64,000 bases of DNA from a virus: the IMG/VR virus record IMGVR_UViG_3300010371_000028, positions 1-64,000 of that record; one strand, written 5' to 3'. Below, piece by piece: positions 6,503 through 63,111 of the stretch (its first letter is position 1; every line of letters begins with the position of its first letter). A program made the translations under genes and the position numbers. The notes beneath the pieces are model-generated. The model saw only the letters and a list, made by a program, of their open reading frames with translations. It ran no database searches and was not told where the DNA came from.

Positions 6503-6876
6503 TGGGTGCCTCCGGCCGTGATCGCGGCGACGGGGCGTGCCACCGGCAGCCCGGGCGCCTGGAACCGGCCGGCCCGCAGCGCCGCGACGTACGCGGCGCC
6601 GGAGTCGTTCCCGCCCGTGTCGGGTACCCGGTGGGCTTCGGCCACGGACTGGCGCTCCGGACCGGGCGGGTTCGCCGCCTCGACCCGCTCGCGCAGGATC
6701 GCGGGGGTGAGCCAGCGGCTGTCACCGCGCAAGTGCTCCCGGGCCGCGGGGATCGCGTCGGCGAGGGTCACGTCGTCGAGCAACTCCGCCCAAACCTCGA
6801 TCAGTTCGCGGTCGATGTTCCGGTTGTCCACGCGGGCGATGTACGTCAGCAGGGCCGAAGCCTCCGTGCGGTTCAT
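6499..6876 (-). CDS. Probable helicase loader (G39P-like)
   Basis: A 125-residue protein whose first 60 residues follow the pattern of phage helicase loaders such as G39P: an initial helix, IEVWAELLDDVTLADAIPAA, then a turn and WLTPAILRERV. The C-terminal half is Pro/Ala-rich and probably flexible, as in G39P, where that part meets the helicase. It directly precedes the DnaB-like gene and overlaps it by 4 bp. Named from pattern and position only. Confidence 0.6.
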   Translation of the reverse strand: MNRTEASALLTYIARVDNRNIDRELIEVWAELLDDVTLADAIPAAREHLRGDSRWLTPAILRERVEAANPPGPERQSVAEAHRVPDTGGNDSGAAYVAALRAGRFQAPGLPVARPVAAITAGGTQ

Positions 6877-7901
6877 GCGGTGATCTCCCTTCTGGGATTC
6901 GGGAAGATGGTGGCCAGGTCGACGCCCTCTTCGGCCGCGAACTCCTGCATGAGGTCAAGCCCGGTCTGCTTGCGCAGGGTCGCCGCCGACGGGCGTGCGG
7001 CGGTCGCGCCGCTCGTTCCCTGGGCGCGGCGCGACTGGACCCGGTCGACGAAGCTGGGGATGGCGGTGGGCGCGCTGCTCTTCTCGCTCCACTCCACGAG
7101 GCCCTGCCGGACGATGTCGTACGACACTTCCGCGAGAAGTTTCTTCAGTTCTTTTCCGACGCGTCCGATCATCTGATCGGTGGGCTTGTTCTCGATTCCT
7201 TTGCTGACGCGGAAGTCGACCCATTCGGCGATGAGGGTCTGCGAATTCCGTACTGGCTCGATTGGTGGCGCGGGCTCATCGCTTCGCGCCGCAGGCGCGC
7301 ACTCGAACAGCGCGACGGTCACGGCGGCTGGCGCCTGGGTTGGTGGCTTTGGCGCCGCGACGGGCAGGACGGTGACGGAGGCGAGCGGCGCAAGCTCCTC
7401 TTCCTCTTCCATTTCCCCTCCACTTCCACTTCCGGGGCGCGCGCGCGAGGCTTGAGGGCTCACTGCGCCCTCACTGAGGGGTGCGTGAGGATGCCCGGAG
7501 GGCTCCGTGAATTTCGGCGCGGGTGGCTTGGCGCCGGGCTTCGGACTACCGTCGTCCTCGTGGTACGGGCACCCCGGAAGGTGACTCTCGGACGGCCGGT
7601 TGATGCGCTGGTGCTTGCTGAAGTTGATGAAGTGGAGATACCAGGACCCGTTTACCTGGTAGCGGCAGAGCATTTCGACGTCGAGCATTTCCTGAATGTG
7701 CGCCTCGACGTCTTTGATGCTCACCTCGTCCATCTCGAGGGGGTAGATGTCGGCGCGGATCAGGTCGATGTCGTCCTTGACGCGCCCCTTGTCGTCGGCG
7801 TGGACGACGAGGCCTTCGAAGGTCCAACGGGCCGGAAACGACAGCTTCTTGATCGTGCGGGAGCGGAAGGCCTCCGGCTTGATCGTGCGGATGCGCGCCA
7901 T
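6873..7901 (-). CDS. Phage replication initiator (winged-helix, DnaD-like tail)
   Basis: A 342-residue protein. It opens with MARIRTIKPEAFRS, a very common start of phage replisome organisers, followed by a winged-helix domain to about residue 110 (VVHADDKGRVKDD and HFINFSKHQRINRPS are typical). A Pro/Ala/Glu-rich linker with an EEEEE run leads to a helical C-terminal domain that may recruit the loader and helicase. Start ATG 7901 shares a base with the upstream stop (TGATG); the 13-residue longer version would lie inside that gene. Origin binding is inferred. Confidence 0.8.
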   Translation of the reverse strand: MARIRTIKPEAFRSRTIKKLSFPARWTFEGLVVHADDKGRVKDDIDLIRADIYPLEMDEVSIKDVEAHIQEMLDVEMLCRYQVNGSWYLHFINFSKHQRINRPSESHLPGCPYHEDDGSPKPGAKPPAPKFTEPSGHPHAPLSEGAVSPQASRARPGSGSGGEMEEEEELAPLASVTVLPVAAPKPPTQAPAAVTVALFECAPAARSDEPAPPIEPVRNSQTLIAEWVDFRVSKGIENKPTDQMIGRVGKELKKLLAEVSYDIVRQGLVEWSEKSSAPTAIPSFVDRVQSRRAQGTSGATAARPSAATLRKQTGLDLMQEFAAEEGVDLATIFPNPRREITA

Positions 7902-8533
7902 CAGACCTTCGCCCCCTTCAGGCTGTTGCACAGGGAGCACAGCGTCTGCAGGTTGCTCAGGTCGTTGCCGCCGCCGAGAGCCTTCGGGTAGACGTGATCC
8001 ACCTCAAGGCCGCGGAAGATCTCAAGGCTGGATGCGCCAGCCTCAACCGGGTCGCCCGGTTTCCAACCGCACTTACAGCATCGATAGCCGTCGCGTTCGA
8101 GGACGACCGCGCGCACCCCGCTTGGCGTGTGCTCGTAGCCGCGGCGCACCTCATCCGCGAGTTCGGCCTGTCCGATTGCCCGGAGCTTCTTTGAGTACGA
8201 CTGATTGAGCACCTTCAACGCGCCAGCAGCGCGCCGCGGCTGGCGGCCGATGGACTCGGCGGCGAAGTACCCGGAAACGAAGACCTCGTCCTCGTCGTAG
8301 TCGACCTCGACAAGGTGACTCGCGCCGAGAGCCGCGATGTCGCTCCTCACCGTGTCGGGGTCTGAGCTGACCAGGTCAGCCCATGCGCGGTGGGCGAACA
8401 CGATCAGGCCGCCCGCGTTGAGCTTGGGATGCGTCAGCAGGAAGGTGTACAGGAGCTTCTGGCTGGCGGTGTGGCTGCGGAATAGGTTGTCGTACCACAT
8501 CGAGGTGGGAATGCTTCCGGACTTGCGGACCAT
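7901..8533 (-). CDS. Winged-helix protein fused to HNH nuclease
   Basis: A 210-residue protein with two parts. Residues 1-110 look like a replication-initiator winged helix (SMWYDNLFRSHTASQKLLYT). Residues about 140-210 are an HNH nuclease with two CxxC zinc pairs (CCKC and CSLC), the catalytic VDHVYPKALGG and NLQTLCSLCN. It sits next to the initiator gene, so it may be an initiator relative that gained a nuclease, or a nuclease aimed at the origin. ATG 8533 has a GGAGAG site 9 bp upstream, while the open frame extends further only as shadow sequence. Confidence 0.75.
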   Translation of the reverse strand: MVRKSGSIPTSMWYDNLFRSHTASQKLLYTFLLTHPKLNAGGLIVFAHRAWADLVSSDPDTVRSDIAALGASHLVEVDYDEDEVFVSGYFAAESIGRQPRRAAGALKVLNQSYSKKLRAIGQAELADEVRRGYEHTPSGVRAVVLERDGYRCCKCGWKPGDPVEAGASSLEIFRGLEVDHVYPKALGGGNDLSNLQTLCSLCNSLKGAKV

Positions 8534-8616
8534 CGTGGTGCTGCTCTCCCGTGGCTGATCGTGGATAGGTGGACTTCGTGCCGGCCCTGTGACCGGCCTG
8601 GTATCTCGCGGCCCCA
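8534..8616 (-). promoter_or_regulatory. Short intergenic leader, 83 bp
   Basis: One of few real gaps in the early operon. It carries the ribosome site of the winged-helix/HNH gene. No clear -10/-35 pair or hairpin was seen. Confidence 0.2.
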
Positions 8617-8844
8617 TCAGGCGGCTGCTTCCGGGCGGTAGGCGGCGACGGACCGCCCGGTCCACCAGCCGTGGCCGCAGCGGTCGCACCGGTAGGCGCA
8701 CGCGAGGGTGTCGCCGCTGATGGCCCAGAGCAGCGGCCGGTTGTCGGCTTGTCGGCACTTGGGGCACGCGTCCAGCTGCCTGGTGACCCAGTCGGGCGCG
8801 GTGGCGATCGACTTGTACCGCCGGGCGGTCTTCAGCGGGGCCAT
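8617..8844 (-). CDS. Zinc-ribbon protein
   Basis: A 75-residue protein with two CxxC knuckles (ACPKC at about 26-29 and CDRC at about 53-56), forming a zinc ribbon, and a Trp-containing end GHGWWTGRS. Start ATG 8844 is coupled to the upstream stop (TAATG). Small zinc ribbons in phages may bind DNA or RNA polymerase; no specific role can be read here. Confidence 0.65.
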   Translation of the reverse strand: MAPLKTARRYKSIATAPDWVTRQLDACPKCRQADNRPLLWAISGDTLACAYRCDRCGHGWWTGRSVAAYRPEAAA

Positions 8845-9470
8845 TACGCCGGCCCCCCGATCTCGGCGTCGTGCCCGTCGGCGGGGTGCTCGACGTGGGA
8901 CCAGCGGGAGTCGAGGACGTCGTCTTCGACGCCGTTCCAGCGGGTGTACTCCCAGTAGTGGATCTCTCCGCCGCAGATCGCGCAGGTACCGCGGTCGCCG
9001 TCGCGCGGCTTCGGGTCGGCGTCGGTCTCGTAGCCGTCCTCGTCGTCGCCGAGCACCACCGCCTCGCCGAGGAACTCCCGTGCCGCAGCGATCGCTGTCG
9101 TCTCGATCGCGGTCGGCTGGCTGACGTGGGCAAGTGCCCCGTCTTCCCAGTGCTTGAGGCTGATGGCGGCGAGGTCGGCGACCGCGTCCCACTGGTCGGC
9201 GATCAGCAGCATCACGCCGGGGTGGACGGCGGCGATGTAGATGGCGTCGGGGTAGGCCTGCCGGTCGATCTCGTTCGGGTCGTTGCTGAAGCTGGGCGCC
9301 CACGCGACCGGTCTCGTGTCGTTGCCGTCACCGGCGAGCACGGTCGCGGTGTAGCCGCCGTCGTGGACGTAGGTGTCGTGGGTGCGCCACGGGCTGGGCG
9401 TGGCCGCGTTGGCGAGCCCGCGCATCTTCTCGGCGGCGCGGCGCAGGGTCTCGGCGGGCGACTCAGACAC
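8844..9470 (-). CDS. Conserved actinophage protein with Cys pair
   Basis: A 208-residue protein. The start ETLRRAAEKMRGLANAATPSPW is a pattern I associate with hypothetical proteins of Streptomyces and mycobacterial phages, followed by a region that holds dates, places and water-type residues and then CAICGG (CxxC) near the C-terminus. Its role is unknown. It overlaps the upstream gene by 8 bp and has no transmembrane segment. Confidence 0.6.
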   Translation of the reverse strand: MSESPAETLRRAAEKMRGLANAATPSPWRTHDTYVHDGGYTATVLAGDGNDTRPVAWAPSFSNDPNEIDRQAYPDAIYIAAVHPGVMLLIADQWDAVADLAAISLKHWEDGALAHVSQPTAIETTAIAAAREFLGEAVVLGDDEDGYETDADPKPRDGDRGTCAICGGEIHYWEYTRWNGVEDDVLDSRWSHVEHPADGHDAEIGGPA

Positions 9471-23943: not shown

Positions 23944-24188
23944 GCGGCACCAACCAGCGTCCGGGACTCGACAGCCTCGACCACGCCAGCCAGATCACGC
24001 GCCGGAACCGAAACCCACGTGTGCCGCAGCGCATCGGCCAGGTCGGCGCGCGCGTCCACGTCACCATCAGCCGCAGCGTCGACCAGTTCCCGAGACTCCA
24101 AGAGCGCGGTGAGAACCGACGGGTGAGCGAGGAGGCCGCAGATCGCGACGGTGTCGTTCGGGCGAGACTCGGCGGTCACGGCGGTCAC
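23940..24188 (-). CDS. Hypothetical early protein
   Basis: An 82-residue, helical, acidic protein. It consists of a short leader, then LLAHPSVLTALLESRELVDA and a second helix pair. The pattern suggests a four-helix bundle. No function assigned. Overlaps the exonuclease and AP2/HNH genes by 4 bp each. Confidence 0.5.
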   Translation of the reverse strand: MTAVTAESRPNDTVAICGLLAHPSVLTALLESRELVDAAADGDVDARADLADALRHTWVSVPARDLAGVVEAVESRTLVGAA

Positions 24189-24712
24189 AAGGCCACCTCG
24201 GCAGGGAAGTTAGGCTGCGCGAACCCAGGCCACGCCGCGACGGCGGCGCGGTCGTAGGCGCGGGCGGCGTCTGCCTCCGACTCGTAGCGGCCGAGGAACC
24301 TCAGCCGGCCATCGACTCTGATCGAGGCCTGCCACTTCTTCTGGCTCCGGTTCCAACAGACGCCTTTATAAACGGACGACCACGGGCGGCCGTCCGCGCG
24401 CCGCGACTTCGGAGTGTTGGCGACGTTCTCAGCCCGCGTCGCGGGACGCAGGTTGTAGCGCTGATTGTTCAGCGCGTCCCCGTCCTCGTGGTCGGTGTCG
24501 AAGCCGGCGGCGGTACCGACGATGAAGCGGTGAAGGAAGACAGTCTTACGGCCGATGACCGTGTAGGCGTAGACCTTGCCCGTCTTGCTCACCATCGGAC
24601 GCCAGCGGTGCTCGGCAACCAACTCGGCATCCGCCTCATCGACCAGCGCCACGTAATCGCCCACGGGGATGGCCACGGCTCCGGGCGGCACGTCAGGCGT
24701 GTGCGCGGTCAC
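24185..24712 (-). CDS. HNH homing endonuclease with AP2 DNA-binding domain
   Basis: A 175-residue protein. The first half has a His-Me finger nuclease: VFLHRFIVGTAAGFDTDHED and the Asn NLRPATRAENVANT. The C-terminal AP2/ERF-type domain begins SSVYKGVCWNRSQKKWQAS and has FLGRYESEADAARAYD. The pair is the standard layout of phage HNH-AP2 homing endonucleases. It probably spreads itself by cutting unoccupied sites; fully in the operon, so no intron or disrupted gene is visible. Confidence 0.88.
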   Translation of the reverse strand: MTAHTPDVPPGAVAIPVGDYVALVDEADAELVAEHRWRPMVSKTGKVYAYTVIGRKTVFLHRFIVGTAAGFDTDHEDGDALNNQRYNLRPATRAENVANTPKSRRADGRPWSSVYKGVCWNRSQKKWQASIRVDGRLRFLGRYESEADAARAYDRAAVAAWPGFAQPNFPAEVAL

Positions 24713-54614: not shown

Positions 54615-56963
54615 CTAGCTGAGCAGCTTGACCGCCAGCTCGCGGCCGGCAGTCTTCATCAGTTCATCGAGGGCGGGAAGGGCGATCCCCTGGTCGGGGT
54701 CCTTCGCCTGCTTGACGAGCCTCACGAGCCGCTCCGTACGCGCAGCCTCGTCCCCGCCCGCGGGGACCTCCTGGCCGTCGTGCTTCGCCTTGGTGAGACT
54801 GGCCCCGGACCGCGGCGCCATCTGCGCCGGGTCGGGGGACGATTCGAACTCGGCGATCCTCGCCTCGAGGTCGCCGATGGTCTTGGTGAGGTCACCGAAC
54901 TGGTCGGCGACGAGGTCCCGGATCGTGGACTTCAACATCTCCGGGTCGATGAGGGGCCCCGCGGTGGCAGTGGCGGCCGGCGCGGCGGCTTCCTGCGCGG
55001 GGTTCGCGGCGTTGGCCATCTCGGCCTCCTTCGTGACGTGCGGGGTGACGAGGGACGCGGCGTGCGCGGCGTCGACCGGGATCGGCGTGCTCGTCGCGTT
55101 GGTCTTGCCGAACTGCTGCGGGACGGGCGCGCTCGCGGCGGGAGAAACGCCCATCGCGCCGTGCGCGGACTCGCCCATGGCGCACACGCCCGGGTGCTGG
55201 CCGGCGATGTAGTCGTGCATCGCGGCGAGGACGCCCTTGGCCTGCTCGCGGGCCGCGGTCGTGTAGTAGGTGCGCGCGTCCTTGGCCGCCGACCCGGGGG
55301 ACGCGGCTTCGCGCCCGGCCGTGATCAGAGGGCGCTTGAAGTCGTCGGGGTTCGGAACGTGGCTGGCGAGGGGGATGCGCGGCTTCTGGCCGGAGCCCGC
55401 CGTCTGGTTGGCGCGCCCGGCGGACACATACGGCCGTTCGAACTGGCCCGGGGTGATGCTGCCGGGCTTCACGTGCACGTCCGGGTAGTAGTCGGCGAAC
55501 GCCTTGCGGAGATCCGTCATGGCTTCGGCCATCAGGCCCGAGTCGGCGGCCTTCAGGACCGCGGCGAGGCTGTAGGCGTGCGAGAGGCTGGGCAGCGCCA
55601 TGGCCGCGCTGGCGGAGTCGCCGGCGGTCAACGCCGCGGAGATGGAGGCTGCGAACACGTCGGGGTCGGCGATGTGCGCGAGGCCCTTCGATACGGCGGG
55701 GTGAGCGGCGATCACGTCGTCGGCGCGGTATGCGGCGCAGGTGGCGTCGTGCAGCCGGGCCAGGTGGTAGGCGGCCGGTCCCGCAGCGCTCTTGGTGGCG
55801 TGCGCGGCCGGCGAGTCGGTCGCCTCGTCCTTGTCCTGGGCCGCAGCCGCCGTCTGCACGTCCTCGCGCACGTTCTCGAGCGCCTGGGCGACCATCTGGT
55901 CGGCCGGGTGAGTGGTCGCGTCGGGGTCCTTGGCCTGGGCGGCGAGCGCGGCGTCAGCGTCCTGCTCAAGCCGGTCGATGGCGCGTTCGACGTCCGTGTC
56001 GGCGGTAGACGGCTTGGCTGCCTTCTTCATGGCGGTGCCGCACTGGGCGCAGAACTTGTCGCTCTTGCGCATCGGGGCGTCGCATTCCGAGCAGTTGCCG
56101 GCCTTCTGCGCCTGCGCCTTCTCCGCCGAGTCGTCGTCGGAGTCGCCCTCGTCCTCGGCGTCGTCGGGCTCGCTGCCGTCGTCGCCCTCGAACGGCTTGG
56201 CCGCGCCCTTGAACGGCGGCTTGCCCTTCTCAATCTCGTCGCCGGCCTTGGCCGCAGCCGGCTCGCCTGTGGGCTCGGCGTCCTTCTTCGCGTCGTCGTC
56301 CTTCACGTCTTCGCCCTTCCACGAGTCGGGGATCTTCGCTTCGAATTCGGGCCCCTTGCGGCGGGCGATAGCCATGGCACGCTGCTTGATCTTCTCGGGG
56401 TCGCCCTTGATGTCGTGGTTCAGGTTCGGGGCGATGTCCGCGACGTCTTTCGGGGTGACGATCGGGAATGCGCGGTGCTCCGGGTCGGCGAAGTCCTCAG
56501 TCGGGATCTTGTCGCGGTCCACTCCGCCGCCGACGTTCCGATCGAAGTCCCGCTTGGCGACCTCGCGGACCGAAGGCTCTGCGGTGAGTTGCCGCTTGAG
56601 CGCGTTCAGCTTCGCCAGGTCGCGCGGGGAGAACGACACGGACACGTCCGCCGGGAGCTCCACCGTCACCGTCTCGGCCTCGATCGCCTTCGTGGCGCCC
56701 TGCGCGGGCGCTGGCGCGTCCTGGCGGTCCGGTTCGGTCATGACGGCGGCAATATGCCCCTCCTGGGTTTCTGCGGCGGCCACGTTGGCCGCCGGATTGA
56801 TCTCGGCAACGTCAAGGGCCTTCATCATGAGAATGGGGAATCCGTTTGCCGGCGTACCGACACCATCCACGCGAGTCGGGTCGAACTTCTCCAACTCGGT
56901 GATCTTCTCCAGGTCATCGCCGGCCTCCCCCTGGTTTCCGACCCCTGGAAACGCTGCGGCCAT
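54615..56963 (-). CDS. Capsid scaffold-like protein with DUF6582-type part
   Basis: A 782-residue acidic protein. N-terminus ITELEKFDPTRVDGVGTPAN, as in XkdF-related proteins; then DFADPEHRAFPIVTPKDVAD (DUF6582-like); a zinc ribbon CSECDAPMRKSDKFCAQC at about 295-315; a long Ala-rich helical middle; and a C-terminal coiled coil. Its place between the protease and capsid fits a scaffold or internal head protein. ATG 56963 has AGGAGG upstream. Confidence 0.65.
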   Translation of the reverse strand: MAAAFPGVGNQGEAGDDLEKITELEKFDPTRVDGVGTPANGFPILMMKALDVAEINPAANVAAAETQEGHIAAVMTEPDRQDAPAPAQGATKAIEAETVTVELPADVSVSFSPRDLAKLNALKRQLTAEPSVREVAKRDFDRNVGGGVDRDKIPTEDFADPEHRAFPIVTPKDVADIAPNLNHDIKGDPEKIKQRAMAIARRKGPEFEAKIPDSWKGEDVKDDDAKKDAEPTGEPAAAKAGDEIEKGKPPFKGAAKPFEGDDGSEPDDAEDEGDSDDDSAEKAQAQKAGNCSECDAPMRKSDKFCAQCGTAMKKAAKPSTADTDVERAIDRLEQDADAALAAQAKDPDATTHPADQMVAQALENVREDVQTAAAAQDKDEATDSPAAHATKSAAGPAAYHLARLHDATCAAYRADDVIAAHPAVSKGLAHIADPDVFAASISAALTAGDSASAAMALPSLSHAYSLAAVLKAADSGLMAEAMTDLRKAFADYYPDVHVKPGSITPGQFERPYVSAGRANQTAGSGQKPRIPLASHVPNPDDFKRPLITAGREAASPGSAAKDARTYYTTAAREQAKGVLAAMHDYIAGQHPGVCAMGESAHGAMGVSPAASAPVPQQFGKTNATSTPIPVDAAHAASLVTPHVTKEAEMANAANPAQEAAAPAATATAGPLIDPEMLKSTIRDLVADQFGDLTKTIGDLEARIAEFESSPDPAQMAPRSGASLTKAKHDGQEVPAGGDEAARTERLVRLVKQAKDPDQGIALPALDELMKTAGRELAVKLLS

Positions 56964-57020
56964 CGTGAACCTCCTGGCGATCATTACCCTGAAACAGGGC
57001 GTGGTGGAGTTCGAATTCGG

Positions 57021-57026
57021 TAGAAT
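57021..57026 (+). promoter_or_regulatory. -10 box for rightward endonuclease
   Basis: TAGAAT ends five bases before GTG 57032, so the mRNA may be leaderless. The -35 region shows no good match. Confidence 0.5.
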
Positions 57027-57031
57027 CTGAC

Positions 57032-58516
57032 GTGGCTACCAATGCAGAGAAATCGGCGTTAGCCGAACGGGCTTTCCTGGCACGCCTCGCCGAACTTGGC
57101 GTCATGCCGGACTACGAAAAGTGGGAGGGCACGGGGCGCCCCCACAAGGCAATCTGCCGTGTGGGCCACGAGTGCTATCCGTACCCCTCCGCGATCCGCA
57201 AAGGAATCGGGCCGTGCAGAGCCTGCGCCGGGCAGGACCCGCGCATGGCAGAGGCGGCGTTCCGGAACCGCCTCGCCGAACTGGGAGCCGCCCCCGTCTA
57301 CGACACCTGGCTCGGTGCGCGCAAAGGCCATGCCGTGATCTGCAAGAACGGGCACGCGTGCCATCCGACGCCCGATGCGATCCGCGCAGGAAACGGTCCC
57401 TGCAACACCTGCGCCGGCACGAACAGTGCGGCGGCCGAACGGAACTACAAGGTCCGGCTCGCTGAACTCGGAGCCGCGCCCGCCTGGACCGCCTGGATCG
57501 GCGCCGCGAAGCCTCACAAGGTCATGTGCCCGCAAGGGCACGAATGCTCCCCGATCCCTTCGGGCGTCATGGGAGGCAAAGGCTTATGTCGGACATGCGC
57601 CCGGCTCGACCCGCTGGTAGCCGAAGTCGCATTCCGACGGCGCCTCGACGAACTCGGCGTCGTCGCCGAATGGGCAACGTGGCGCGGCAATCACGCCAAG
57701 TACCAGGCAACCTGCGCTGCCGGGCACGAGTGCTGGCCGCGCCCTGACCACTTGCGGCGAGGCGACGGGCCCTGCCGCGCCTGTGGGAAGTGCGACCCCG
57801 TCGAGGCCGAGGCCCAGACCCGGCGTCGGCTGGAAGCATCCGGCTTCACGCCGGCTTGGGAACAGTGGGTCGGTGCAGGCCGCCCCCACAAAGTAGCCTG
57901 CCCGGCCGGACACGAGTTCCCCATGTACCCGTCCGCGCTGGCGCGGAGAGGGTGTACGTGCCCTCATTGCGCCGGCACGACTCCGGAAGCGATCGAGAGC
58001 GTCTTTAGGGATGCCGTCGTGAGGCAGGGCGCCACCCCAGCGTGGGGCAGTTGGCTAGGGAGCAGCCAGGGCCACAGGGTCATCTGCAAGAACGGGCATG
58101 TGGTCTACCCCAGGCCGAACGGTGTCGGGCAGGGGCGTGGCGTCTGCCGGTTCTGCAAGGGCCGGGCTTGGGACGTCTTCTACGTCGTGGTCAACGACGT
58201 GAAGCGCGAACTGAAATTCGGGATCACGAGCGGCGACCCCCGGGGGCGCCTTGCCGTCCACAGGAACCGCGGCTTCTCGCATGTGGCCCTGATCGCCGCG
58301 ACTCCGCTGGCCCTGAAGATCGAAACCGCGACGAAGAGAGCCCTCCGCGCCGCCGGACACCGGCCCGCCCACGGCAGGGAGTACTTCGGCCTTGACGCCC
58401 TGGAAGAAGTCTTACAGGTGGCGATCAGCTACGGACTCGAAGCCGGGATCAGTCGCGAAGACTGGCCAGGGCGTCCTGGGACGGCTCTCGCCTTACGGCC
58501 GAGCCTTGCATGCTGA
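57032..58516 (+). CDS. GIY-YIG-like endonuclease with six zinc-finger repeats
   Basis: A 494-residue protein. Residues 1-375 hold six copies of a 62-residue unit: 'F..RLaElGa.P.w..W.G....HkviC..GHec.P.p.......G.C..C'; first Cys residues at 42, 104 and 166 show the period. The C-terminal domain (about 380-470) matches T5orf172/GIY-YIG: VFYVVVND, LKFGITSGDPRGRL, and a Glu in KIETATK (E431). Probably a homing endonuclease with an array that reads a long DNA site. It opposes the late genes, has four TTA codons, and overlaps the protease 3' end by 68 bp. Confidence 0.8.
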   Translation: MATNAEKSALAERAFLARLAELGVMPDYEKWEGTGRPHKAICRVGHECYPYPSAIRKGIGPCRACAGQDPRMAEAAFRNRLAELGAAPVYDTWLGARKGHAVICKNGHACHPTPDAIRAGNGPCNTCAGTNSAAAERNYKVRLAELGAAPAWTAWIGAAKPHKVMCPQGHECSPIPSGVMGGKGLCRTCARLDPLVAEVAFRRRLDELGVVAEWATWRGNHAKYQATCAAGHECWPRPDHLRRGDGPCRACGKCDPVEAEAQTRRRLEASGFTPAWEQWVGAGRPHKVACPAGHEFPMYPSALARRGCTCPHCAGTTPEAIESVFRDAVVRQGATPAWGSWLGSSQGHRVICKNGHVVYPRPNGVGQGRGVCRFCKGRAWDVFYVVVNDVKRELKFGITSGDPRGRLAVHRNRGFSHVALIAATPLALKIETATKRALRAAGHRPAHGREYFGLDALEEVLQVAISYGLEAGISREDWPGRPGTALALRPSLAC

Positions 58517-58973
58517 CCCCGCGGATCTTGCCGCTCTTGATGAGTTCCCAGGTCTCCGGGGTCCACTGGATCCCCAGGAGCCAGTCCCCGGACTTGATCG
58601 TCTGCGTTGTGCCGTCGGCTGCGGTCAAGTGCCAGTCGGGGCCGCGATAGACATACGATTCCACAACGTTGCCGCTGCCATCCGTGCCCTGCTGATGCCA
58701 CAGCCCCACCGAGCGCGACTTCAGCATGTAGGACCACGCCGCATCCTCGACCGCCTGCGGGCCTGCGAAGTCGCGGAAGCCGTCCGCGGCCACGCCGGCA
58801 TCCGGCTTGTTCGCTGGATACGCGACGTGCAGGGTGAAGCGGCGATCAGGCTGCGACTTCACGACGCGGGCGGCGATGCCCATGCCGTCCCATACGTCAG
58901 GCTGCGCGTCCTTGACGACTTCGCCGCCGTCGATGACCACGCGCTCGGTGCCGTCTTCGATAGTGACGCGCAG
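58449..58973 (-). CDS. XkdF-type prohead protease
   Basis: About 174 residues from CTG 58973 (163 from GTG 58940). The blocks FTLHVAYPANKPDAGVAADG, WSYMLKSRSVGLWHQQGTDG, SYVYRGPDWHL, and GDWLLGIQWTPETWELIKSG then GVSMQGSA match XkdF-type phage serine proteases. It matures the head scaffold. The CTG has AGGAG six bases upstream and gives a natural start (RVTIEDGTERVVIDGGEVVK); GTG 58940 has no ribosome site. The HAD gene before it ends with TAG in the same frame. Confidence 0.8.
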   Translation of the reverse strand: MRVTIEDGTERVVIDGGEVVKDAQPDVWDGMGIAARVVKSQPDRRFTLHVAYPANKPDAGVAADGFRDFAGPQAVEDAAWSYMLKSRSVGLWHQQGTDGSGNVVESYVYRGPDWHLTAADGTTQTIKSGDWLLGIQWTPETWELIKSGKIRGVSMQGSAVRREPSQDALASLRD

Positions 58974-58982
58974 ATGCAGCTC

Positions 58983-59603
58983 CTACCTGGTTTCGAGCCG
59001 GGTCAGCAGTTCGGTCCAGTCCGCGAAGGCGCGGACGTTCGGGTACTGCCGCCAGGATTGAGGGGTCCACGGGCGTATCGGCGTCCACACGTCGACACCG
59101 GGCCGGGCGATGGTGAGCCACTTCGCGGGGTCATCGTCGATCAGGACGGCCGGATTCATGGGCCCTCGGGCGGCGAGCGCCATCGTTTTCGATGTGGGAC
59201 CGTCGAGGATCTGCCCGTCGCGCGGCACCGCGCTGGCGTCGAGCCACTTTTCAGTGGCGGGCGCGGTGGACGCCGGGCGGTCCGAGGCGATGAGGACCCG
59301 ATGTCCGGAAGCGCGCACGGTTCGCAGCGCCGCGATGGCTTCGCGGTCCGGGGCGAGGTTGAGGATCCACGGGTCGCGTGCGGATTGGGCGAGCAGCCAT
59401 CTCTTCTGGTCTGGCTCGAACAGGTTCACGTACGGGTAGGCGCGCATGTCCGAGACAAGATGCGAGGAGCCGAAGCGCGCGTTGACTGCGGTGCAGCCGG
59501 CTTCGACCTCCTGCGCGAGTACGTTGTCGATGTCGCACACCACGAGCGGTCGTGTCGCCTCGGCCGCGAAAACGGCACCGAGATCCACGCGGCCTCCCGT
59601 CAA
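58983..59603 (-). CDS. HAD-family phosphatase (5'-nucleotidase-like)
   Basis: A 206-residue protein. VVCDIDNVLA at about 21-30 is the HAD motif I (DxD), a cap region follows, then VLIASDRPAS (motif II), and NPAVLIDDDPAKW (motif IV Asp pair). This resembles NT5C-type nucleotidases or polynucleotide phosphatases. Inside a head-gene operon this is unusual. Its TAG stop is in frame with the protease ORF that follows. Confidence 0.75.
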   Translation of the reverse strand: MTGGRVDLGAVFAAEATRPLVVCDIDNVLAQEVEAGCTAVNARFGSSHLVSDMRAYPYVNLFEPDQKRWLLAQSARDPWILNLAPDREAIAALRTVRASGHRVLIASDRPASTAPATEKWLDASAVPRDGQILDGPTSKTMALAARGPMNPAVLIDDDPAKWLTIARPGVDVWTPIRPWTPQSWRQYPNVRAFADWTELLTRLETR

Positions 59604-60076
59604 CGGCGGTCGTAGTCGTGCAGGTGCAGCGAGCGCTTGTGCACGTGCGGCCGATAGCCCAGGGTCCGCAGTAGCTGGGACAGGCGGGTATCGAGCCGGT
59701 GCCAGTCCTTGGCCGGGGACCCGTCGCCATCTACATCACCGAGCCGGCCCATGAGACCGGGATGGCGAGTTTTGAGCCTGCCCGCCAGTTTCACGCAGCC
59801 GAGCCCGTCCTGGAGCCACGTGTGCTCGATCCGGTACGGGCTTGTACACCACGGCCGGGCGCAGGCCCCCATGGCGGCGGTAACACCGTCGGCCGGAAGC
59901 ATGTCGTGCTCGATGAGGATCAGGTCACCTGGGCGGTCCCATTCGGCGGCGAGGAGGCGCCAGTAGGCTTCGACGTCTGCGTCGAGTTGGCAGATTCTCG
60001 CACCCTCGGCCTGCGCCCACCTGCGGGTCGCTTCGTGCAGCATGCCGGGTGCTGCCGCAACGATGGCCACCGTCAC
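59600..60076 (-). CDS. Glycosyltransferase-like protein
   Basis: A 158-residue protein. The start TVAIVAAAPGMLHEATRRWA, DLILIEHDMLPADGVTAAMG (an acidic 'EHD' like a GT-A DxD), and LGCVKLAGRLKTRHP and DWHRLDTRLSQLLRTLGYRP match small phage glycosyltransferase-like proteins. It may modify capsid or DNA. GTG 60076 overlaps the portal stop (GTGA). Confidence 0.6.
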   Translation of the reverse strand: MTVAIVAAAPGMLHEATRRWAQAEGARICQLDADVEAYWRLLAAEWDRPGDLILIEHDMLPADGVTAAMGACARPWCTSPYRIEHTWLQDGLGCVKLAGRLKTRHPGLMGRLGDVDGDGSPAKDWHRLDTRLSQLLRTLGYRPHVHKRSLHLHDYDRR

Positions 60077-63000
60077 ACCATGTCCGATGCGCCGAGCCGG
60101 TACCTGACCACCTCGCTGTCGCCGCGATGGACGGACAGGTGCGTGAAGGTCACGGGCAGCGCCGGCAGCGGATCCGGCAGGCTATCACCAGCATCGACGT
60201 AGGCCCTGGTGACGTGCGGATGCCAATCCGCGTGCTCGCTGGCCGAGAGGTCCGCTAGGTTCGCTCGTAGTTGCTCGGCGCCGGGGAGAGTGACTCCGGC
60301 CCATACGACGGTCTTGCCGTCGCTGGAGTCGGACGGTTCGAAGGTGCCGAGTCCCGAGACGATTCCCGTCAGCGGTCCCGGCGCGGACGCGGCGGCTCGT
60401 GCGGCGCGTGCGCACGCGAGCGCGAACGCGTCGTCGTCGACGTCAGGCCCGAGATATGCGACGGTCACATGGAAGTCGGCGACTCCGCCGGGGACCGGCT
60501 CGATCAGCGCTTCAGGCAGATCCAGCGAGATCATTCCCGATTGCGCGTTAAGACTGTATCCGCGCGCTGCTTTCACCGTGTCCGAGGAGTCCTCGGCGGG
60601 GACGAAACGGCAGGAGCAGCGGCAGTTCGGGCCGCCGAGGCACACGTTTCCTCCGAACCCGCCGTCCCCGGGCCAGCCGGGCAGCGTCTTGAGTGTGAAC
60701 GTCTTGCCCGCCCGGTCGACGCAGGGCCCGCAGTGGTCCTTCGCGTCCCCGAGTTCCCACACGATCGTGTAGGTGGGGTGCGCGTCCATCACGGTTCGGC
60801 CGTAAGCCTGGTTGTACGCCTTGTACAGGGACGCGGCGTACTGGGCGAGACGCGCCCCGATCGCGGCGAGCGACAGTCCCGCGACGACGTCCTGGATCAG
60901 CCCCATGAGGTAGCCGCGCTGCCGTTCGGCTTGCTCGCCGGCATCGTCGTCGAGGTCGTCCTCGTCGATGGGCGGAGTGTCCTCGTAGTCTCCGGACGCG
61001 TCCGTCGTGCCGGCTGCCATCGCCTTCCGGTACCCGGCGGCCATCGCCCGCACTCCGCCGTCGACGGCGTGCGGAAGGGACAGGCCCGCGTTCTTGTGGT
61101 CGCGCACCAGTTGTCCGAGGTGCGCCGCCACGGCTGCGGCAGCCGCTTCCAGGTGTCGTTCGCGCCGTTCCTGCCGCTGCTTGGCGTCGGTGGCGTCCTT
61201 CGCGGCCTTCACTGCGGCGGGCACGCCCTGCGGGAGCATCCGAGCGGCAGCTTCCACGGCTTCGACGGGAAGCGCTTCGGGTCGGAACCGGGCAAGGTCG
61301 CGGCCCTTGCGCAGGTAGCGGCCGAGGATCTCAAGCTCCGCCTTCTGTGCGGCTTGTTCGGCGGCCTGCGCCTCCGCGTCTGCTGCGCCTGCGCTGCCGG
61401 GGGTGTCCGGCAGTCTTTGCGCCGCCTCGTGCGCCGGTGTCGTCAGCGAGTCGTCCGAGACCTGCGCCGACGCGTCCGGTACGGCGCCGGGCACGCCCGG
61501 GGCCTGGGGCTGTTCGCTGGCGATCGCCGAGAGCGGTACCGGGCCGGTGGCGGTGAACACGAGCGGCACCGAGGTCTCGGGCAGCCCGAACGGCGTCCAC
61601 CCGAGTTCGCCGCGGAACTCGTCGATCGTCTGCACGCCGCCCTGGGTCAACTGCACGCCCTGGTCGATCAGCGACTGCCGGTTCTTGCCGCGGTCCGTCA
61701 GGCCCCAGGACCATTCCATGTCCTTCTGCCCGAAGACTTCCCGGATCACGAAGTCGAAGATGACGGTCTTGAGTGCCGCGCACACCGGTTCAACGCGGGT
61801 CTGCGACCCCTTGTCCGAGTTGATCTGGGAGAGTTCCTTGGATTCGGACGGCGACTGCACTGCGGAGACCCGCGGGGTGACGCCGAGGTCCATCGGCGTC
61901 AGGCCGAACGGCATCGCCACCTGGGAGATGATCCACTCATCGAACTGGTCGGCGAGCGCGACCGGCTTCTGCGCCTCGGCTTTCGACCCGGGCGGCAGCA
62001 CCACGATCCGGTGCTTCGCCCCGATGTCCCCGGCCATCGCGTTCAGCGCATCCTGCAACTGCCGGATCTGCTGCGGGGTGGAGATGTCCGGGCCCGGCGT
62101 AATGAACTGCCCGGGAATGGAGCCGTCGGTGAAGTAGTCGTTCTGGAACTGCTGACGCGCCAGACCGATCGAGATCGGGAGGAGCGCCTTCTCCACGAGC
62201 GACTGCCCGTACGGGGTGAACGCGCGCGGCGTCTCCCTCATGTAGATCAGCTGGTCGGCGCGGAAGTCCGCGACGGGCTCGCTGAGTTCTTCGAGGTCGT
62301 CCCCGTTGATGACCGACAGGAGGTCGACGCGGGGTACGCCCCACACGAACTGCTGGTAGCCCACGGCGGACGGCCTCGGCGTCTCGCCGAGCGTCGAGAT
62401 CAGCGGCCTGACGGTGGACCCGTCGATGAGGTTGAGCGCGGCGAGGTCGGAGCCGAACGGGCCGGCGCCCTTCTTGCGCGGCGGCACCAGGTGGATCGCG
62501 ACGGCGTCGAGGACGAACCGGTCTTCGAGCAGCGCGCTCAGCCACGCCCCGAGGGTCGGATACTTGGCGCGGTCGGAGTCGGGGTGGCTGAAGAAGTCGA
62601 GGACGATCGCGCGCCGCTTCTCCCAGTCGGCCCGCAGACTCTCGTCCCCGGCCATGGCGTGCTCGGCCTCAGGCGTGGGAATCACGTCGGGTTCGAGACC
62701 GATGATCTCCGCCTTGCGCTTGTCGACGCAGGAGCGGGCAACCGAGTACATGTCGGCGACGGCGCGCAGCGTCGCGAACGGCGCGAGCTTGAGTCCTTCG
62801 CTGCCCGGCTGCCCGACGGGGAGGTTGTAGCCGGGCTCGTACTGGTATCGGCGGACGTCGGGCCGGTGGGTGTCCTCGCGCGGCGGGTCGATCGGCATGG
62901 CCGTGACTGGCGCCATGGGGCCGAACGCGCCGTTGAGGAACACGGGGGCGGGCCGGGGCAGCGGCGAATACGGCACGGAGGCGCTGTAGCCCTGCCCGTA

Positions 63001-63111
63001 TGACGCGACCAGCGGCGAGAGTCCGCCCTGGCCGGTGCTGCCGCTACTGCCGGCGTTGTTCGCTGCGGCGAGTACGGCTGCCGCGATCGCGTTCCCTTTC
63101 GGCACGGCCAC
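60073..63111 (-). CDS. Portal-MuF-2H phosphoesterase fusion
   Basis: A 1012-residue protein. (a) Portal, about 60-520: 'RVADMYSVARSCVDKRKAEI', 'LLSVINGDDLEELSEPVADF', 'SIGLARQQFQNDYFTDGSIP', 'FDEWIISQVAMPFGLTPMDL'. (b) Linker rich in Ala, Pro, Gln. (c) MuF-type domain about 690-860, with Cys residues in DHCGPCVDRAGKTF and CLGGPNCRCSCRF. (d) 2H phosphoesterase about 865-1012, with HVT at 881-883 (FHVTVAYLG) and HVT at 966-968 (WHPHVTRAYV), 85 apart, as for LigT/2'-5' ligase-type enzymes. ATG 63111 is chosen. Confidence 0.88.
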   Translation of the reverse strand: MAVPKGNAIAAAVLAAANNAGSSGSTGQGGLSPLVASYGQGYSASVPYSPLPRPAPVFLNGAFGPMAPVTAMPIDPPREDTHRPDVRRYQYEPGYNLPVGQPGSEGLKLAPFATLRAVADMYSVARSCVDKRKAEIIGLEPDVIPTPEAEHAMAGDESLRADWEKRRAIVLDFFSHPDSDRAKYPTLGAWLSALLEDRFVLDAVAIHLVPPRKKGAGPFGSDLAALNLIDGSTVRPLISTLGETPRPSAVGYQQFVWGVPRVDLLSVINGDDLEELSEPVADFRADQLIYMRETPRAFTPYGQSLVEKALLPISIGLARQQFQNDYFTDGSIPGQFITPGPDISTPQQIRQLQDALNAMAGDIGAKHRIVVLPPGSKAEAQKPVALADQFDEWIISQVAMPFGLTPMDLGVTPRVSAVQSPSESKELSQINSDKGSQTRVEPVCAALKTVIFDFVIREVFGQKDMEWSWGLTDRGKNRQSLIDQGVQLTQGGVQTIDEFRGELGWTPFGLPETSVPLVFTATGPVPLSAIASEQPQAPGVPGAVPDASAQVSDDSLTTPAHEAAQRLPDTPGSAGAADAEAQAAEQAAQKAELEILGRYLRKGRDLARFRPEALPVEAVEAAARMLPQGVPAAVKAAKDATDAKQRQERRERHLEAAAAAVAAHLGQLVRDHKNAGLSLPHAVDGGVRAMAAGYRKAMAAGTTDASGDYEDTPPIDEDDLDDDAGEQAERQRGYLMGLIQDVVAGLSLAAIGARLAQYAASLYKAYNQAYGRTVMDAHPTYTIVWELGDAKDHCGPCVDRAGKTFTLKTLPGWPGDGGFGGNVCLGGPNCRCSCRFVPAEDSSDTVKAARGYSLNAQSGMISLDLPEALIEPVPGGVADFHVTVAYLGPDVDDDAFALACARAARAAASAPGPLTGIVSGLGTFEPSDSSDGKTVVWAGVTLPGAEQLRANLADLSASEHADWHPHVTRAYVDAGDSLPDPLPALPVTFTHLSVHRGDSEVVRYRLGASDMV

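Follow-up and report, generated by a model that had tools for sequence, protein, structure and literature searches.

Our analysis points to a free-standing homing endonuclease gene inserted between two head genes of a virus whose host is probably an actinobacterium. We consider this identification very likely. The gene lies in a stretch of 64,000 nucleotides (the window) from a virus record of 132,777 bases, in which no second gene of its kind was found. Its product carries six zinc-finger-type modules followed by a nuclease domain, and 16 related viral loci lack the gene at the corresponding site. The combination of a zinc array with a T5orf172 nuclease is not new, having been published in 2023 (PMC10448857); the window gene joins it from an actinobacterial branch.

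Gene organization and start

The 494-codon reading frame is intact (Table 1) and, as the first-pass annotation had stated, opposes its neighbors, being on the + strand with head genes on the - strand on both sides. The portal gene (60073-63111, -) lies on the far side of the XkdF-like protease gene from the endonuclease, and the 511-aa gene that comes after the scaffold-like gene is, from its position, probably the capsid gene. The final 68 nt of the endonuclease frame overlap the end of the XkdF-like gene in antisense, so the last ~22 residues are presumably drawn from host sequence, and the stop codon would likewise be provided by host DNA. Third-position GC is 0.79 in the endonuclease gene, compared with mostly 0.83-0.96 in late genes, a difference weakly consistent with foreign origin.

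Table 1. Coordinates of the endonuclease gene, its parts and its flanking genes in the window
Feature	Position	Strand	Basis or remark
Scaffold-like head protein gene, flanking	54615-56984	-	Likely start 56963, AGGAGG upstream at 56970-56975
-10-like hexamer TAGAAT, ends 5 nt before GTG	57021-57026	+	Putative leaderless-type start
Endonuclease gene (probable homing-endonuclease type), 494 aa, GTG start	57032-58516	+	ORF and PHROG/profile matches
Zinc module 1 (ligand pattern C42, H46, C62, C65)	57053-57235	+	Sequence pattern
Zinc module 2	57239-57421	+	Sequence pattern
Zinc module 3	57425-57607	+	Sequence pattern
Zinc module 4	57611-57793	+	Sequence pattern
Zinc module 5, loop most divergent, ligands retained	57797-57979	+	Sequence pattern
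Zinc module 6, adjoins nuclease domain	57983-58165	+	Sequence pattern
T5orf172-type GIY-YIG-superfamily nuclease domain	58169-58429	+	Conserved Y384, G397, R406, H410, E431, E450
C-terminal tail, absent from relatives	58430-58513	+	Final part antisense to the XkdF-like gene end
XkdF-type head maturation protease gene, flanking	58449-58940	-	Pfam Peptidase_S78_2, 5.8e-15

The head region has other features that deserve mention. The scaffold-like protein contains a zinc-ribbon-like CxxC...CxxC at residues 298-320, with a match below the cut-off. The portal protein (1012 aa) is fused to a C-terminal 2'-5' RNA ligase-type domain (2_5_RNA_ligase2, 1.6e-7), and a polynucleotide kinase/NT5C-like gene (58983-59603, -) sits between the portal and head protease genes, a place that it also occupies in one related locus (L013).

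Two further regions of the window resemble nuclease genes. A 175-aa frame (24185-24712, -) has an HNH_3-like stretch (E 1.6e-5, below the cut-off) followed by an apparent AP2 domain, and probably encodes another free-standing homing endonuclease, this one of the AP2-HNH kind. The frame at 7901-9133 (-) has a C-terminal HNH nuclease match (PF01844, E 2.3e-11 at 7910-8014) and overlaps another at 6873-7940; both look replication-type by eye.

The leaderless-type start proposed for the endonuclease gene on first reading agrees with the sequence: TAGAAT is followed after 5 nt by the GTG, and no Shine-Dalgarno sequence precedes it. The layout recurs in the branch. A TANNNT box ends 5-7 nt before a plausible start in 8 of 36 members (not all independent, as some are close relatives), none of which has a Shine-Dalgarno sequence, and the remaining members mostly have one; per start codon, the layout has a background rate of 0.2-0.4%. 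In five of the eight, the -10 box is of the extended form (TGGTA...T). Actinobacteria commonly use leaderless starts, so that of the endonuclease gene is not exotic.

Zinc modules

The first zinc-type cysteines of the six modules fall at residues 42, 104, 166, 228, 290 and 352, giving the period of exactly 62 residues that had been annotated. The C..GH..C..C pattern, also annotated, is present in every unit, and the C, G, H, C and C of C-x2-G-H...C-x2-C are unchanged in all 76 modules from the window protein and its relatives, the four ligand positions included. All 24 predicted ligands are retained in the window protein; the loop of module 5 is altered (RRGCTC). The units had been described as near-identical, a description that does not hold, since pairwise identity among the six is only 31-52% for protein and 45-62% for DNA.

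In a profile-profile comparison, the modules matched those of known phage endonucleases with a probability of 98.9 (E 1.5e-17; best shuffled control 0.0098), and Pfam assigns CapR and DUF4379 to these known modules. With a treble-clef-type ligand pattern (C..GH...C..C) in a module of ~60 aa, the units fall within the CapR/DUF4379 type and may be expected to coordinate zinc and bind DNA.

The first-pass annotation had also proposed that the array reads a long site through a repeat code, and suggested aligning the units. The alignment gives no support to a code of the TALE kind, which we reject: the modules are divergent (31-52%), and variation is scattered over ~10 columns with an entropy of at least 3 bits across the 76 modules, unlike a two-residue code. 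The most variable columns (28, 42, 49, 47, 52, 37, 61, 57, 23 and 29) are spread along the module and contain no RVD-like hypervariable pair, and family members differ in their number of modules, from 2 to 7. Recent internal duplication was likewise rejected for most modules, as only 29 of 141 find their nearest match within their own protein; in the window protein this is true of module 5 alone. Of 36 last modules, 20 have another protein's last module as their best match, compared with a 0.26 share of last modules overall. Together, the last-to-last matches and the few same-protein matches suggest that the arrays are mostly old and that the module next to the nuclease is the most stable.

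Nuclease domain

The nuclease domain (~ residues 380-466) reads W-D-V-F-Y-V-V...K-F-G-I-T-S-G-D-P-R-G-R-L-x2-H-R...E...G-R-E-Y-F. Among 14 aligned relatives from the branch, W380, D381, Y384, G397, R406, H410, E431, G448, E450 and Y451 are invariant or nearly so. A profile of the domain aligned with T5orf172-type domains of T5-like, Vibrio and Krischvirus proteins at an hhalign probability of 92.9 (E 3.7e-7), the best E from 100 column-shuffled control profiles being 0.042. The whole protein matches PHROG 681 ("endonuclease") at 1.7e-20 and PHROG 559 (endonuclease) at 1.4e-19.

The window protein by itself has no Pfam match at 0.01 and falls below every Pfam cut-off, and searches of PDB sequences gave no credible match. 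The Pfam families are reached only through homologs: T5orf172 or MUG113 and CapR or DUF4379 are called on relatives, T5orf172 in 3 of 20 branch members (best 2.8e-4) and MUG113 in one. Some branch members also match TOBE, BRCT and DUF7895 weakly, which we took as chance.

GIY-YIG nucleases are defined by two short motifs (GIY/YIG), a central arginine and a C-terminal glutamate (PMC1564403), and T5orf172 is one of their sub-families (PMC8263062). The window protein has F-Y384-V-V and K-F-G397-I-T, then R406 (with H410), then E431. The spacing of R406 and H410 resembles that of the active-site Arg/His pair of the GIY-YIG enzyme R.Eco29kI, R104 and H108, which are four residues apart (PMC1952068). 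The profile match and the retained catalytic positions bear out the T5orf172/GIY-YIG-type domain originally noted after the modules. Judged from these comparisons, the C-terminal domain is of the T5orf172 type and belongs to the GIY-YIG superfamily.

Insertion between head genes

Searching with the XkdF-like protein, we obtained 36 related viral loci and compared gene order in the nearest 16 (L012-L027), some of which are near-duplicates. In these, the scaffold-like gene follows the protease gene within a few tens of bases, its start usually coupled to the protease stop by a CTGAGGAG-type sequence, and a nuclease gene is present at the junction in none; among these loci and the window, only the window has one. 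Since the flanking genes are adjacent in the 16 related loci, the ~1.46 kb that separates them in the window is an insertion. The window protease retains its normal C-terminus but has lost the CTGAGGAG sequence (CTTCGCGACTGA), and the scaffold-like gene has its own AGGAGG upstream of the ATG at 56963. We rejected the idea that the insert splits a single XkdF gene, because in the relatives the protease frame closes with a stop codon of its own and the scaffold-like protein is encoded in a different frame.

The comparison with phages lacking the gene, which the first-pass annotation had recommended, pairs an occupied site in the window with an empty one, the protease and scaffold-like genes directly adjacent, in 16 loci, as expected for a homing gene. 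The annotation had called the gene recently inserted between head genes; the 16 empty loci uphold the insertion, and we do not conclude that it was recent because the nearest empty relatives are only ~65% identical in XkdF. This same distance (best ~65% aa identity) places the borders of the insert only to within tens of nucleotides.

Relatives and known systems

We found 35 relatives of the window protein, encoded on viral contigs or in genomes of Streptomycetaceae, with arrays of 2-7 modules. A search of viral contigs with the window protein alone gave no matches; the relatives came from profile searches, which returned 26 and then 31 viral loci in overlapping sets and 13 loci in Streptomyces, Kitasatospora and Actinacidiphila genomes. 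The longest array found, of seven modules, is on a Streptomyces carpinensis contig (L085, 1105-3348). Relatives are flanked by genes for the terminase large subunit, portal, head protease or tape measure, and those of T5-like phages and Krischvirus adjoin terminase/portal, nrdD and gp32/frd, the same placement as reported for T5orf172 homing genes (PMC10448857).

The closest published parallel in layout is a set of T5orf172 homing genes whose zinc fingers, of the CapR, DUF723 or DUF4379 type, are repeated like "beads on a string". Examples come from the Vibrio phages Helene and 184E37.3a, and Vibrio phage genes with six repeats are known (Helene has six); the homing genes neighbor those for terminase, capsid and reductase, and their repeats recombine (PMC10448857). 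Shared with the window protein are the zinc array followed by the nuclease, repeats of ~60 aa in variable number, and insertion beside essential head or replication genes. The window protein directly matched proteins of the Vibrio phages 184E37 and F88. However, identity to the Vibrio members is only ~24%, and the window protein belongs to a separate actinobacterial branch, recognizable by the W-D-x-F-Y-V-V and K-F-G-I-T-S-G-D-P-R motifs and an R-x3-H in the nuclease.

Within this branch, gp30 of Streptomyces phage phiSAJS1 is 40% identical over the nuclease domain and last module, and its gene also opposes its neighbors and has a leaderless-type start; it differs in having two modules rather than six and other neighboring genes. 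More distant is ORF240 of Escherichia phage Phi1, free-standing between genes 32 and frd, in which five CapR-type modules precede a T5orf172-like nuclease. In contrast to the window gene, it is co-directional with its neighbors and has another host and insertion site, with ~22% identity between the proteins. I-TevI of T4 has its GIY-YIG nuclease at the N-terminus, has a single zinc finger and is encoded in an intron. While it differs from the window protein in these three respects, it shares by layout the "beads on a string" arrangement (nuclease, zinc-finger linker and DNA-binding domain) and a catalytic Arg and Glu that are alike in kind. In phage group II introns, homing proteins combine CapR modules with an EDxHD/Vsr-like nuclease (PMC12350094). 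These also have 3-5 modules of ~60 aa (CapR/DUF4379/DUF723-like) before a C-terminal nuclease, but the nuclease fold is different and the proteins are intron-encoded.

Discussion

We suggest the following model for the window gene. The six modules would bind zinc and contact a long DNA site at, or next to, the uninterrupted junction of the XkdF-like and scaffold-like genes in a related, insert-free phage, and the T5orf172-type nuclease would cut at that junction. During co-infection, the cut genome could then acquire a copy of the ~1.46 kb cassette through double-strand-break repair. The carrier would be protected, as the insert interrupts its own presumed target DNA, and a promoter and leaderless start of its own would allow the gene to be expressed despite its antisense position in a late operon.

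Other functions are less likely because the catalytic residues are conserved, empty sites are found in related phages, and the relatives occupy varied sites. The modules are homologous to the CapR type, and the CapR of PLE represses the capsid operon of phage ICP1 (PMC10448857). As the gene lies within the head operon, with a divergent promoter beside the scaffold-like gene, the protein could be a DNA-binding regulator that represses or tunes late transcription, its nuclease secondary or unused. We consider this quite improbable, given that every catalytic nuclease position is conserved in the window protein and its relatives, that relatives adjoin such unrelated genes as terminase, portal and tape measure, and that 16 related head operons do without the gene.

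The nuclease might instead act against competitors such as satellites or other phages, as does Odn of ICP1, which joins a nuclease domain of this type to a different DNA-binding domain and serves anti-satellite immunity (PMC8263062). A gene flanked by conserved head genes, for which related loci show the matching empty site, is rather a signature of homing, and no satellite or defense genes were seen beside the window gene, making such a role very unlikely. It is equally improbable that the gene is what remains of a homing endonuclease that is decaying or already inactive. The altered loop of module 5 and a C-terminus that extends 20-odd residues into antisense host sequence could be read as decay, but the 494-aa frame is intact, no catalytic residue and none of the 24 predicted zinc ligands has been lost, and the promoter-like sequence is retained.

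The modules of the branch could form a re-combinable DNA reader, each contacting a few base pairs, with arrays of 2-7 setting the length of the target. We regard this as unlikely. If true, however, the modular reader would represent a naturally occurring nuclease scaffold of another type than TALE or C2H2 arrays, and the arrays would be of interest for genome engineering if their modules proved to be separately readable.

The leaderless-type promoter and start in part of the branch suggest an expression route for genes that land antisense in a late operon. More generally, our data add to the T5orf172 zinc-array homing endonucleases a clear branch in actinobacteria, associated with Streptomycetaceae, which has arrays of 2-7 modules and candidate empty target sites. 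The branch and its candidate empty sites offer a concrete place to ask whether the number of modules sets the length of the target.
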